A DNA stretch of 6,520 nt. It comes from Hyphomicrobiales bacterium. GTDB lineage: Bacteria > Pseudomonadota > Alphaproteobacteria > Rhizobiales > Afifellaceae. Every line of letters starts with the position of its first letter. Positions within the stretch are counted from its first letter, which is position 1. The stretch is taken from NCBI GenBank assembly GCA_013812985.1, contig JACCSN010000006.1, positions 1-6,520 on the forward strand, in the 5' to 3' direction. The notes below the pieces were generated by a model. It was given only the letters and a program-made list of their open reading frames with translations. It was not told where the DNA came from and ran no database searches. Shown here piece by piece: positions 1,820 to 6,130 of this stretch. The position numbers and the translations under genes were made by a program.

Positions 1820-3496
1820 TCAGTCGCTGACATGCGTGACATGGACAATGGCCGACGGCTTCTTGCCCCAGGCCTGATCGACTGCGCCGCGGACAGCGCG
1901 CCGGACTGATTCGCGAACCAGACCGGCGTCGCGCCGACGCGCCTTCGGCAGCGAATCGAGCGCTTCGTCCACGGCGTCCTCGACGAGCTTCAAGAGCTTC
2001 TCGCCCTCGGCGTCGGCGGAAGGGATCCCGGCGAGCATGATCGCCGGGTCTTCCAGAATGTCGCCCGAGTCCGACAGCACGATGGCGACGCTCACCAATC
2101 CGGCAAAGGCGAGACGCCGCCGCTCGCCGACGCCACTCTCCTCATGCGAGATGAGAAGCCGCCCGTCGCGGTAGAGCCGCCCGTGCTTGACGTTGTCGAG
2201 GCGCTCGGCCGGGCCGGGGGCAAGCCGGATCATCTGGCCGTTGCGGATTTCGATGACCTGCGGGACGCCCGCCGCGCGGGCTACCTTGGCTTGCTCGTGG
2301 AGGTGCAGCGCCTCCCCGTGCACCGGGACGACGATTTGCGGCTTCGTCCAGCCATAGAGCTGGCGGAGTTCGTCGCGGCGGGGATGGCCGGAAGTGTGGA
2401 CCAGCGCGTCGCGGTCGGTGATCACCTCGGCGCCCATGTTCACCAGAGCGTTGATGATGAAATTCACCGGACGCTCATTGCCGGGGATGGTGCGCGACGA
2501 GAAGATCACCCGATCGCCCGACGAGAGGGCCACCTCCCGATGATCCCCCGAGGCGATGCGGGACAAGGCGGCCCGAGGCTCGCCTTGGCTGCCGGTCATC
2601 AGAGCGACGACCTTGTTGCGGGGCAGATAACCAAAGGCGTCCTGATCCAGGAACGGCGGCAGGCCTTCCAGATATCCGAGCTCTTCGGCGACATCGACGG
2701 CGCGGCGGATGGAGCGGCCGACGATGACGATGTCGCGGCCGGCGCGCTGCGCGGCGGCGGCCACTGCCTTGAGGCGCGCCACGTTGGAGGCGAACGTGGT
2801 GACCGCGACGCGCTGCGGCGCCTCAGCGATGAGTCGTTCCAGCACCACGGCCACCTCGCCTTCGCTGGGGCTGATGCCTTCCCGGATCGCATTGGTGGAA
2901 TCGGAGACAAGCGCCAGCACGCCTTCCTGCCCGAGGGCGGCGAGGCGATCCTCGTCGGTCGCAAGCCCGAGGCCCGGGGCCGGATCGAGCTTCCAGTCGC
3001 CTGTATGGATCACCGTTCCGGCCGGCGTGCGGATGGCGAGGGCGTTTGATTCCGGGATCGAATGGGAGACCGGGATGTATTCCACGTCGAAGGGGCCCAC
3101 CACGATCCGGTCTCGCTGGCGCACGATATTGACGGGAATCTTCGGCGCGTTCGGCTCGCCGGCGAGCTTGGCCGCGAGCAGCCCGGCGGCGAATGGCGTC
3201 ATGTAGAGCGGCGCTTGAAGCAACGGCCAGAAATTCAGGAGCGCACCGTAATGATCCTCATGCGCATGGGTGATGACGATGCCGGCCAGCCGCCCCTTGC
3301 GTTCCAGGAGGAAGCCGATGTCGGGCAGGACCGCATCGACGCCGGGCAGATCGTCGTGCCCGAAGGCGACGCCCAAATCCACGGCGAGCCAGGTGCGGTT
3401 GCGCCCATGGCCGTAGCCGTAGAGGGCGAGGTTCATGCCAATCTCGCCGACGCCGCCGAGCGCCACAAATACCAGTTCGTCAACAGCCTCTATCAT
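1820..3496 (-). CDS. rnj: Ribonuclease J (metallo-beta-lactamase / beta-CASP RNase)
   Basis: This is a 558-residue zinc-dependent ribonuclease of the RNase J family, which has 5'-to-3' exonuclease and endonuclease activity in rRNA maturation and mRNA decay. The metallo-beta-lactamase core shows the HxHxDH motif as THAHEDHYGA (His77, His79, Asp81, His82), His145 in VSHSIPES, and HTGDWKLD with Asp167. The beta-CASP domain covers roughly residues 200-370, with DSTNA at 199-203, TGSQGEP at 301-307 and HTSGHPRRDEL at 367-377. PVHGE with His393 completes the active site, and a C-terminal domain follows to residue 558. All expected catalytic residues are present and the length is normal. The start overlaps the birA stop by one base (TGATG), and a GAGGA ribosome-binding site inside birA (plus-strand 3501-3505) lies four bases before the ATG, so translation is probably coupled. 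Many alphaproteobacteria have RNase J alongside RNase E. The family is certain; its activity in this organism is inferred. Confidence 0.96.
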   Translation of the reverse strand: MIEAVDELVFVALGGVGEIGMNLALYGYGHGRNRTWLAVDLGVAFGHDDLPGVDAVLPDIGFLLERKGRLAGIVITHAHEDHYGALLNFWPLLQAPLYMTPFAAGLLAAKLAGEPNAPKIPVNIVRQRDRIVVGPFDVEYIPVSHSIPESNALAIRTPAGTVIHTGDWKLDPAPGLGLATDEDRLAALGQEGVLALVSDSTNAIREGISPSEGEVAVVLERLIAEAPQRVAVTTFASNVARLKAVAAAAQRAGRDIVIVGRSIRRAVDVAEELGYLEGLPPFLDQDAFGYLPRNKVVALMTGSQGEPRAALSRIASGDHREVALSSGDRVIFSSRTIPGNERPVNFIINALVNMGAEVITDRDALVHTSGHPRRDELRQLYGWTKPQIVVPVHGEALHLHEQAKVARAAGVPQVIEIRNGQMIRLAPGPAERLDNVKHGRLYRDGRLLISHEESGVGERRRLAFAGLVSVAIVLSDSGDILEDPAIMLAGIPSADAEGEKLLKLVEDAVDEALDSLPKARRRDAGLVRESVRRAVRGAVDQAWGKKPSAIVHVTHVSD

Positions 3497-4497
3497 CAGT
3501 TCCTCATTGTCGCGGCAGCGCCGAAATGCACATCGCCGGCGGTGATCGGCTGCGCCGACCCGTCCGCCGCCCGCACGATCAGCCGGCCTTCCTCATCGAT
3601 CGTCTCGAACAGGCCTCGGAAGACTTGCTCACCCATATGGACCACGATCGGCGCGCCAAGACCTGCGGCCCGCTCAAGCCAGCGATTGCGAATTGCGGGA
3701 AAGCCCTGCCCGCCGTCCCAGAGCGCCTCCTGCTGGACCCAGGCCTCGGCAAGAGCTTCGAAGAGCGCCTCCGGCGTTACTTCTACGCCGCATCCGCACA
3801 ATGAAGTGGCCGGATAAGGCAGGTCTTTTGGCGCGTGGAGGACGTTGACGCCGATCCCGATCACCACGCGGCTCACCCCATCCGGCAAAGTAAGCGCCTC
3901 CAAGAGGATGCCGGCGATCTTCGCCCCGTCAACCAGCACATCGTTCGGCCACTTCAGGCGGAGCTGAAACGATCCGCGATGCTCCATGAGCTCGGCAGTT
4001 GTCTCCGCATGCGGGGAGCTCCCCCCTTCCCTCATGCTGAGGTGCGAGCCGAAGGCGAGCCTCGAAGCGCGAAGCGACGCGTTTCCAGCGCATTCTGGAC
4101 GCCCCTTCGAGGCGATTCCGACTGCGTCGGAACCGCGCCTCAGGATGAGCGGGTTGGACGACGATCGGTCCTCGATGGAAAAAGCAGAAGATCCCGACAG
4201 GAGGGCGCGGATAGCCTGATCGAGCGCCAGGCCGGCCGCAAAGCCGAGCTTGGCCGCATTCGGCTGGCCAAGCACCGAGCCAACAAGCAGGCTCGCCGCC
4301 AAGTTGCCGCTGGGCGTCTCCCAGGCGCGTCCGCGGCGGCCATGTCCAGCCGTCTGCGCCTTTGCAACCACCCAAAGCCGCCCCTCGTCCCCTGCCTTGG
4401 CGCGGTTCAGCGCCTCCGTGCTGGTGGAGCCGATGGTTTCGTAGGCTGCAAGCCGATAACTTCCGGCGGTCGCCTTCGGCCCAAGCGCGAACGGCAT
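3496..4497 (-). CDS. birA: Biotin-[acetyl-CoA-carboxylase] ligase carrying an in-frame repeat insertion
   Basis: This enzyme activates biotin to biotinyl-AMP and transfers it to a lysine of biotin-dependent carboxylases. These include acetyl-CoA carboxylase and probably propionyl-CoA carboxylase, whose product feeds the epimerase encoded two genes downstream. Conserved parts are ETIGSTSTEAL (20-30), the nucleotide/biotin loop GHGRRGRAW (51-59), KWPNDVLVDGAKIAGILLE (182-200) and IGIGVNV (193-bp downstream in codon terms, about 203-209). The N-terminal helix-turn-helix of E. coli BirA is absent, so this is a monofunctional ligase and probably not a repressor. At 333 residues it is longer than the roughly 250-270 I expect. 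The excess is a low-complexity segment, about residues 101-176, between ALDQAIRALL and LRLKWPND. Residues 117-156 of it are encoded by a palindromic repeat at 4031-4149. The frame stays open and conserved on both sides, so the gene is probably functional. The ATG directly follows the nuoN stop (TGAATG) with no clear ribosome-binding site, suggesting coupling. Confidence 0.93.
   Translation of the reverse strand: MPFALGPKATAGSYRLAAYETIGSTSTEALNRAKAGDEGRLWVVAKAQTAGHGRRGRAWETPSGNLAASLLVGSVLGQPNAAKLGFAAGLALDQAIRALLSGSSAFSIEDRSSSNPLILRRGSDAVGIASKGRPECAGNASLRASRLAFGSHLSMREGGSSPHAETTAELMEHRGSFQLRLKWPNDVLVDGAKIAGILLEALTLPDGVSRVVIGIGVNVLHAPKDLPYPATSLCGCGVEVTPEALFEALAEAWVQQEALWDGGQGFPAIRNRWLERAAGLGAPIVVHMGEQVFRGLFETIDEEGRLIVRAADGSAQPITAGDVHFGAAATMRN
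4031..4149. repeat. Palindromic interspersed repeat inside birA
   Basis: The ends form an imperfect 12-bp inverted repeat: CTCATGCTGAGG (4031-4042) and CCTCAGGATGAG (4138-4149), 11 of 12 complementary. Nested inside are CTCGAAG (4061-4067) with CTTCGAG (4105-4111), a CCAG/CTGG hairpin with its loop centred near 4091, and TTCCGAC (4116-4122) with GTCGGAA (4126-4132) around a TGC loop. An imperfect hairpin also spans about 4039-4063. Elements with CTCATxCTGAGG-type ends and this hairpin-rich layout are, from memory, common between genes in Hyphomicrobiales. Here the element lies within a coding sequence and encodes about 40 residues. No clear target-site duplication is visible. A perfect 12-bp palindrome, GGGGAGCTCCCC (4013-4024), sits just outside one end. 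That the element is dispersed in this genome cannot be shown from one copy. Confidence 0.82.
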
Positions 4498-5931: not shown

Positions 5932-5970
5932 GCGGGCGTCGCGTCCGCAAGTTCGCCGAAACTCTCTTCT

Positions 5971-6112
5971 GTCATCCCGGTTTGGCCGTCAGGCCAAGAC
6001 CGGGATCCATACACGCCGTAGCAACCAGAAGAGGTCGCGGCTGTTGAGCACGTTTCTTCGCCGCCGGCGTCTATGGATCCCGGATTGGCGCTGTCGCGCC
6101 ATCCGGGATGAC
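5971..6112. repeat. Three-armed palindromic repeat between nuoM and nuoN
   Basis: A 142-bp element bounded by a perfect 10-bp inverted repeat: GTCATCCCGG (5971-5980) and CCGGGATGAC (6103-6112). One end forms a hairpin, CCCGGT-TTGGCC with GGCCAA-GACCGGG (5976-6004, loop GTCA). The other forms ATCCCGGATTGGCGC with GCGCCATCCGGGAT (6077-6109, loop TGTC, one bulge). A central pair of arms, 6003-6018 and 6065-6080, is complementary at 15 of 16 positions (GGATCCATA...). The result can fold as three arms or in alternative pairings. It differs in sequence from the element inside birA. Sequences with GTCATCCCGG/CCGGGATGAC ends are, from memory, common intergenic repeats in Hyphomicrobiales. Lying between two genes of one operon, it would be transcribed and form a strong RNA structure. 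I see no T tract after it on the minus strand, so I do not call it a terminator. Confidence 0.88.
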
Positions 6113-6130
6113 AAAGCAGAGGGATCGCAT

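Follow-up and report, generated by a model that had tools for sequence, protein, structure and literature searches.

Known protein-coding palindromes

Palindromic elements lying in frame within protein genes have been described from Rickettsia (PMC10969869). According to one account of such elements, the biotin ligase genes of Rickettsia and Wolbachia carry palindromes in one region, with RPE-6 or RPE-4 located in the Rickettsia gene (PMC3767692). For RPE-4, RPE-6 and RPE-7 the same account, from 2013, preferred a common origin and left hotspots possible (PMC3767692). RPE-6 is also known as CGTC-1 and RPE-4 as CGTC-4 in a description of the CGTC REPs, which are found mostly in alphaproteobacteria, have intragenic copies in several species and bear a tag that may read CCTC (PMC3733652). 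As an example given there, the recB gene of two Xanthomonas species has different REPs at about one site (PMC3733652). In-frame fusions have also been reported for MITEs such as ERIC and Correia (PMC2229807). A search of openly accessible papers gave no report of such birA insertions in Hyphomicrobiales. In this search, nothing relevant beyond PMC3767692 was found on rhizobial, Methylobacterium or biotin-ligase palindromes, and nothing relevant, judging by titles, for the end sequence of the element described here.

A palindromic repeat in frame within birA

The window is the whole stretch of 6,520 nucleotides that was analysed. Its minus strand carries nuoN, birA, an RNase J-type gene, a VOC/epimerase-type gene, a gene for a small membrane protein and proS, all names other than birA being our own reading; on that reading, birA has nuoN on one side and the RNase J-type gene on the other. 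The birA gene (3496..4497, minus strand) encodes a biotin--[biotin carboxyl-carrier protein] ligase of 333 amino acids, as judged from the open reading frame list, the Pfam domains BPL_LplA_LipB and BPL_C, and its homologs. BPL_LplA_LipB is the catalytic domain, and its Pfam match is split over two stretches. In the gene lies a palindromic repeat of 119 bp (4031..4149, minus strand), which is translated as BirA residues 117-156 in what is here called the LILR frame. An earlier note on this DNA had placed such an element, with inverted ends matching at 11 of 12 positions, wholly inside birA, and coordinates, ends and open reading frame all agree with it. Read on the plus strand, the outer arms are CTCATGCTGAGGTGCG (4031..4046), distal to the gene start, and CGCGCCTCAGGATGAG (4134..4149), proximal to it; they are complementary at 11 of 12 positions in their outer part and at 14 of 16 overall. 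Further in, the arm GCCTCGAAG (4059..4067, plus strand) is complementary to CTTCGAGGC (4105..4113, plus strand) at nine of nine positions, a pairing that is seen in the fold, and a short side hairpin, GCGATTCCGAC/GTCGGAACCGC (4112..4136, plus strand, 91% complementary), appears in the folds of both strands.

The end motif CTCATSCTGAGG, with at most one mismatch allowed, is found at just two places in the window, 4031-4042 and 4138-4149, and is exact at each; the expectation is a mean of 0.12 occurrences, and two occurrences were seen in none of 200 shuffles. The fold of positions 4020-4160 has, relative to dinucleotide shuffles, a z of -4.0 for the plus strand and -2.8 for the gene strand. Against codon shuffles on the gene strand, the whole loop of the window BirA is unexceptional (z -0.54, 21 of 60 shuffles equally good), which marks the palindrome as decayed. 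On either strand of the element, both end repeats contain a TGA that closes one and the same frame, and the remaining two frames are open, in agreement with the earlier remark that an end-repeat TGA closes one of the three minus-strand frames. An Rfam search gave nothing at gathering score. The 20 bases flanking the element on each side show no direct duplication; an old copy could have lost a target-site duplication. The element belongs, in degenerate form, to a family of interspersed palindromic repeats, here called family A.

The window has a second palindromic element, at 5962-6121 between nuoN and nuoM, with arms of 57 nucleotides that are 75% complementary. Its TGTCATCCCGG..CCGGGATCCATA units resemble a head-to-head pair of CGTC-type REPs, by resemblance only.

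The insertion compared with other BirA proteins

Among the BirA relatives near the window protein are those of Propylenella (Hyphomicrobiales) and also Afifella, Aquibium, Kaistia and others. The homolog set consists of 120 listed proteins (window included) out of 6616 found. In these, the loop between the LGF motif and KWPND has 23-44 residues in 100 proteins and 68-98 in 11, with nine unparsed; in the window BirA it has 98. A first set of 110 birA loci, in which some genes were fetched twice, had a short gap between the two halves in 109 cases and a long one in a single locus, L111. The best-scoring other homolog among the matches listed, P0002, lacks the element and is 60 residues shorter than the window BirA, and the element is also absent from P0003 and P0010. 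Since about 40 of the 60 extra residues come from the 119-bp element and about 20 lie outside it, the insertion is larger than the element. The BirA sequence is conserved on both sides. The comparison with relatives proposed in the earlier note came out in its favour, and so did its reading that conserved BirA sequence flanks the element in one frame: the insertion lies in frame in a gene that relatives have without it.

The extended loop takes up approximately residues 98-176 (3970..4206, minus strand), between a helix at 78-101 and the KWPND strand. In the solved ligase 1wnl, a two-piece alignment puts window residues 96-175 between chain residues 89 and 94, where the solved protein has merely four residues. 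A structure prediction for the window BirA, made with a 78-row alignment (mean pLDDT 82, pTM 0.82), gives the ligase core with confidence, together with the helix at 78-101 and a strand at 179-182. In residues 101-180 the block means of confidence are 39-71, and residues 102-178 are mostly low. In the predicted fold, then, the insert resembles a loop of poor order that joins two intact elements, low confidence being no proof of disorder, and the earlier guess of a surface loop fits this model.

Repeat-like inserts at the same turn are also present in Propylenella-like metagenomic BirAs, where they were recognised at the protein level in 13 of 129 proteins (P0001-P0129, window included). No convincing DNA copy of these insert peptides was found in the 80 named loci, which amount to 1.28 Mb of relatives' DNA; at an E value of 0.01 the 13 real queries gave 27 matches and 65 shuffled ones gave 57, which makes this search uninformative. 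As a separate observation, contig C2 of an Afifella genome (G001) has biotin ligase matches near both 139852 and 273230; some members of the order may thus have a second birA.

Family A as a dispersed repeat

The earlier note had also proposed a search for the element in the rest of its genome; made in the genomes of other Hyphomicrobiales, that search gave dispersed relatives of the element. In the 11 genomes searched, partial matches to the window element number 19 in an Aquibium genome, 11 in a Bauldia MAG and one in a Kaistia genome; eight of the 11, Afifella included, have no match, and family A was found in none of three genomes from the family of G104, which together with Afifella is nearest by BirA among the genomes searched. 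With the element from the birA gene of Methylobacterium bullatum (L111), 82 strand-wise matches were obtained in the M. bullatum genome. Interspersion is accordingly seen in M. bullatum, Aquibium and Bauldia. Of 70 dispersed copies from other Hyphomicrobiales (40 from M. bullatum found with the L111 element, the other 30 preselected by similarity to the window element), 67 score higher in alignment with the window element than the top one among 500 shuffles; the leading four of these alignments span the whole element.

Copies of family A start with CCTCAT. Among 40 places examined in M. bullatum, three were recognised in genes, namely birA, urea carboxylase and cobN, and all three copies are read in one frame, PHPE/D...QDEV. 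The 36 M. bullatum copies with recognised ends (L171-L211) have, on average, approximately 2.0 of six frames open, compared with 2.56 in mononucleotide shuffles. With fewer open frames than these shuffles, the family is apparently not built for read-through. Near 1500-1620 in the M. bullatum locus L192, a family A end repeat, CAGGATGAGG, could supply an ATG start codon; the gene beginning there apparently encodes a periplasmic binding protein (MRFWVGGIMLFCLTPALA..., the name being our reading).

Comparison with described repeats

As a protein-coding palindromic repeat in the general sense, the window element has the hairpin, the inverted ends and the in-frame insertion. The RPE families share with family A, as far as they are described, that they are palindromic interspersed repeats of about 100-150 bp which lie in frame in conserved genes and in exposed parts. 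The comparison with Rickettsia palindromic elements made in the earlier note is therefore apt in kind, by analogy, and it extends to the biotin ligase gene itself (PMC3767692). The differences are that RPEs belong to an order other than Hyphomicrobiales, and the likeness is one of description; by its named BirA relatives, the window organism lies outside the Rickettsiaceae. In the present case, moreover, two unrelated families occupy one loop on the DNA level, and three of 40 M. bullatum places were recognised in genes. The Wolbachia elements (WPE) share with the Rickettsia element, according to PMC3767692, its region within the biotin ligase gene; their likeness to the window element is at the level of the gene. 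No Rickettsia or Wolbachia genome was recognised in a class sample of 385 genomes, which is no proof of absence; this search covered biotin ligase in 21 of the 385 (8 loci translated), ADP/ATP translocase in 80, and one order of 10.

Like family A, the CGTC/GTAG REPs are palindromic and dispersed and have intragenic copies, and the CCTCAT start of family A recalls their described tag. CGTC units are described as having a CGTC/TGTC/CCTC tag, an AT-led stem and a CCA tail, with stems of 8-9 bp and loops of 4-5 bases; set beside this description, the ends of family A pair across about 87 bases and enclose inner arms. MITEs of the ERIC and Correia kind are similar in being short, in having inverted ends and in forming in-frame fusions, but the ends of family A as delimited here are not TA, and no duplication was seen beside the window copy.

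Two repeat families at one turn in Methylobacterium

The birA gene of M. bullatum has family A at the same turn before KWPND, read in the PHPE frame, while the window copy is read in the LILR frame; the third frame of the window element is the one closed by TGA in its end repeats. A search of 111 genomes from the genus of M. bullatum yielded 110 birA loci (30 + 80), 104 of which could be parsed; loops of 58-98 residues are present in 17 of these 104. On our reading, four of the 17 carry family A, eight carry a second family, B, or a shortened form of it, and five have other inserts. Family B is a palindrome of about 190 bp with CCCTCTCCCCGC...GCGGGGAGAGGG at both ends when intact. Compared with codon shuffles, the long loops (n=18, window included) have a mean z of -5.2 and normal loops (n=17) one of -0.45; clear hairpins are seen in 14 of the 18, the four with z above -2 being the window, L256, L257 and L263. 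Of 32 Methylobacterium genomes tested, 28 contain matches to the family B insert of L244; counted strand-wise, there are up to 50 per genome where no more than 25 candidates were scored. In families A and B, inserts match other copies in their own genome at up to 89%.

With ten copies of each family, scores of A against B reach 42, which is also the maximum for shuffled A against B (means 30.3 and 25.9), while scores within families are at least 136 for A and at least 185 for B. The two families are unrelated, as judged by an alignment that does not rise above the shuffle maximum. End and hairpin motifs were counted in 29 loci, whose ranking by similarity to a family B BirA favours inserted loops: the 4,896 bp of loops contain 24 (in 12 of 29 loops) and the 99,906 bp of flanks none. 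As far as these comparisons of DNA reach, they speak for recurrent insertion into a permissive loop rather than for a common origin. That unrelated repeats enter this loop in other lineages had not been anticipated in the earlier note. Protein-coding palindromes are already known in kind; the new part is one loop used repeatedly by unrelated families.

CobN and other proteins

BirA is not the only protein in which two families have come to lie at one place. The cobN gene contains family A in M. bullatum (L182) and family B in two other Methylobacterium species (L355, L365), in the same position between DGAFRFxMV and FLQPDRGR, a loop of about 12 residues in the solved CobN 9uk9. By these alignments CobN would be a second gate, with two families at one homologous loop, like BirA. 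A codon-usage test was weak as a means of finding coding-like frames, and third-position G+C was used instead. It gave coding-like frames through two of 40 family A places and four of 26 family B places. The birA copies themselves were not flagged, so the test undercounts genes. The other two family B genes, an ATP-dependent DNA ligase (L357) and a glycosyltransferase-type gene (L382), have their copies in frame.

Gain, loss and probable decay of inserts

The history of the inserts was followed on a FastTree tree of 348 BirA rows with the loop left out, in which some genes occur twice and five rows are unsplit. Of these rows, 278 were scored by hand as without insert, short remnants included. 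On this tree the presence of an insert changes at least 33 times and its type at least 40 times, gains and losses pooled. Some close pairs differ in insert presence, such as P0208 and P0209, which are 0.017 apart, or P0130 and L291, at 0.05. In the DNA alignment, the short loops of L281, L278 and L291 have a single CCTCAGGATGAGG-like end of a repeat, and in L246 and L247 the central part of family B is missing; the apparent losses are always in frame. This apparent deletion series suggests in-frame decay, with the short forms probably being remnants rather than precursors.

Explanations

For the observed family membership, insertion, frame and recurrence at one turn, the best explanation is very probably that the element is a copy of a non-autonomous interspersed palindromic repeat which inserted into birA and is tolerated at a turn of the catalytic domain. 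Points against it are that the window copy folds no better than codon shuffles, that the 119-bp element leaves about 20 extra residues unaccounted for, that no duplication flanks it, and that Afifella and the family of G104 gave no match. The relatives without the segment and the dispersed copies of family A support the earlier interpretation of a selfish repeat within birA. A family A copy would have entered the gene such that an open frame of the element joined the gene frame and the total inserted length kept it, at a turn that would tolerate extra residues. Mobilisation was presumably in trans, by a putative transposase. The clustering at this turn may come from selection removing insertions elsewhere rather than from a site preference of the element. 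Site preference is an alternative, in that hairpin remnants of the loop could draw in further copies or recombine with these. Later in-frame deletions would shrink the inserts to short remnants, and much of the loop sequence may be the residue of such insertion and decay, for which the insert would not need any function.

The inserts could also go back to one ancient insertion in the alphaproteobacterial BirA loop that diverged into those of today. The same gene and region are affected in Rickettsia and Wolbachia as described in PMC3767692, and some inserts are plainly inherited in clades (P0004, P0014, P0017, and family B in the Methylobacterium/Methylorubrum group). Common descent is nevertheless unlikely, given that A and B do not align above the shuffle maximum, that inserts are closer to repeat copies of their own genome than to the inserts of orthologous genes, as seen in DNA from families A and B only, that the reading frame of family A differs between the window and Methylobacterium, and that presence differs between close rows with so many changes on the tree. 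Quite unlikely, too, is a domesticated insert, either a translated repeat or an RNA hairpin kept for a function such as birA regulation or an altered ligase: inserts differ between close species and apparently shrink by in-frame deletion, and the same repeats are found in unrelated proteins (CobN, urea carboxylase, DNA ligase), even if inserts persist in several species and the three in-gene family A copies of M. bullatum use one frame.

It would be very improbable for the segment to be an ordinary lineage-specific linker, that is, low-complexity protein in a G+C-rich gene with a palindrome arising by chance. Loop length is indeed variable among homologs and the window copy is no better than codon shuffles, but the end motif is found twice, exactly at both ends, where 0.12 occurrences are expected, the element matches dispersed repeats from end to end, and most long loops (14 of 18) have clear hairpins. 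A chance palindrome as such was ruled out by the end-motif statistics together with the alignment with dispersed repeats. For repeat reads misjoined inside birA in a metagenome contig speaks the P0001 cluster, which stands for a single contig of 6520 bases, as long as the window; yet the frame is kept on both sides and the same arrangement is found in a 4.79-Mb contig of M. bullatum, which makes an assembly artefact hardly credible.

Extending the preferred explanation, that of a tolerated repeat copy, we lean towards the reading that turns in BirA, and in CobN, are standing entry gates, filled independently by unrelated repeats, read in different frames and worn by deletion, in which case many of the short alphaproteobacterial BirA loops would be remnants.

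Implications

The best descriptions of protein-coding palindromes come from Rickettsia and Wolbachia; the data from Hyphomicrobiales extend them to two DNA families, two frames and a second protein. If the insertions of Rickettsia and Wolbachia are at the same turn, selfish DNA would have rewritten one position of a protein in two orders or more. Since filled sites, short sites and apparent remnants are found among close species, the question of one old insertion or a hotspot becomes testable on the DNA of Methylobacterium, a genus that is grown in the laboratory. The data also give insight into the way in which non-coding repeats turn into new stretches of protein, and into how these then erode. 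Stray DNA seems, from the sequences compared here, to have rewritten one spot in a protein repeatedly, and the places where this happens would map, by natural experiment, the positions at which conserved enzymes can accept 40-60 additional residues.
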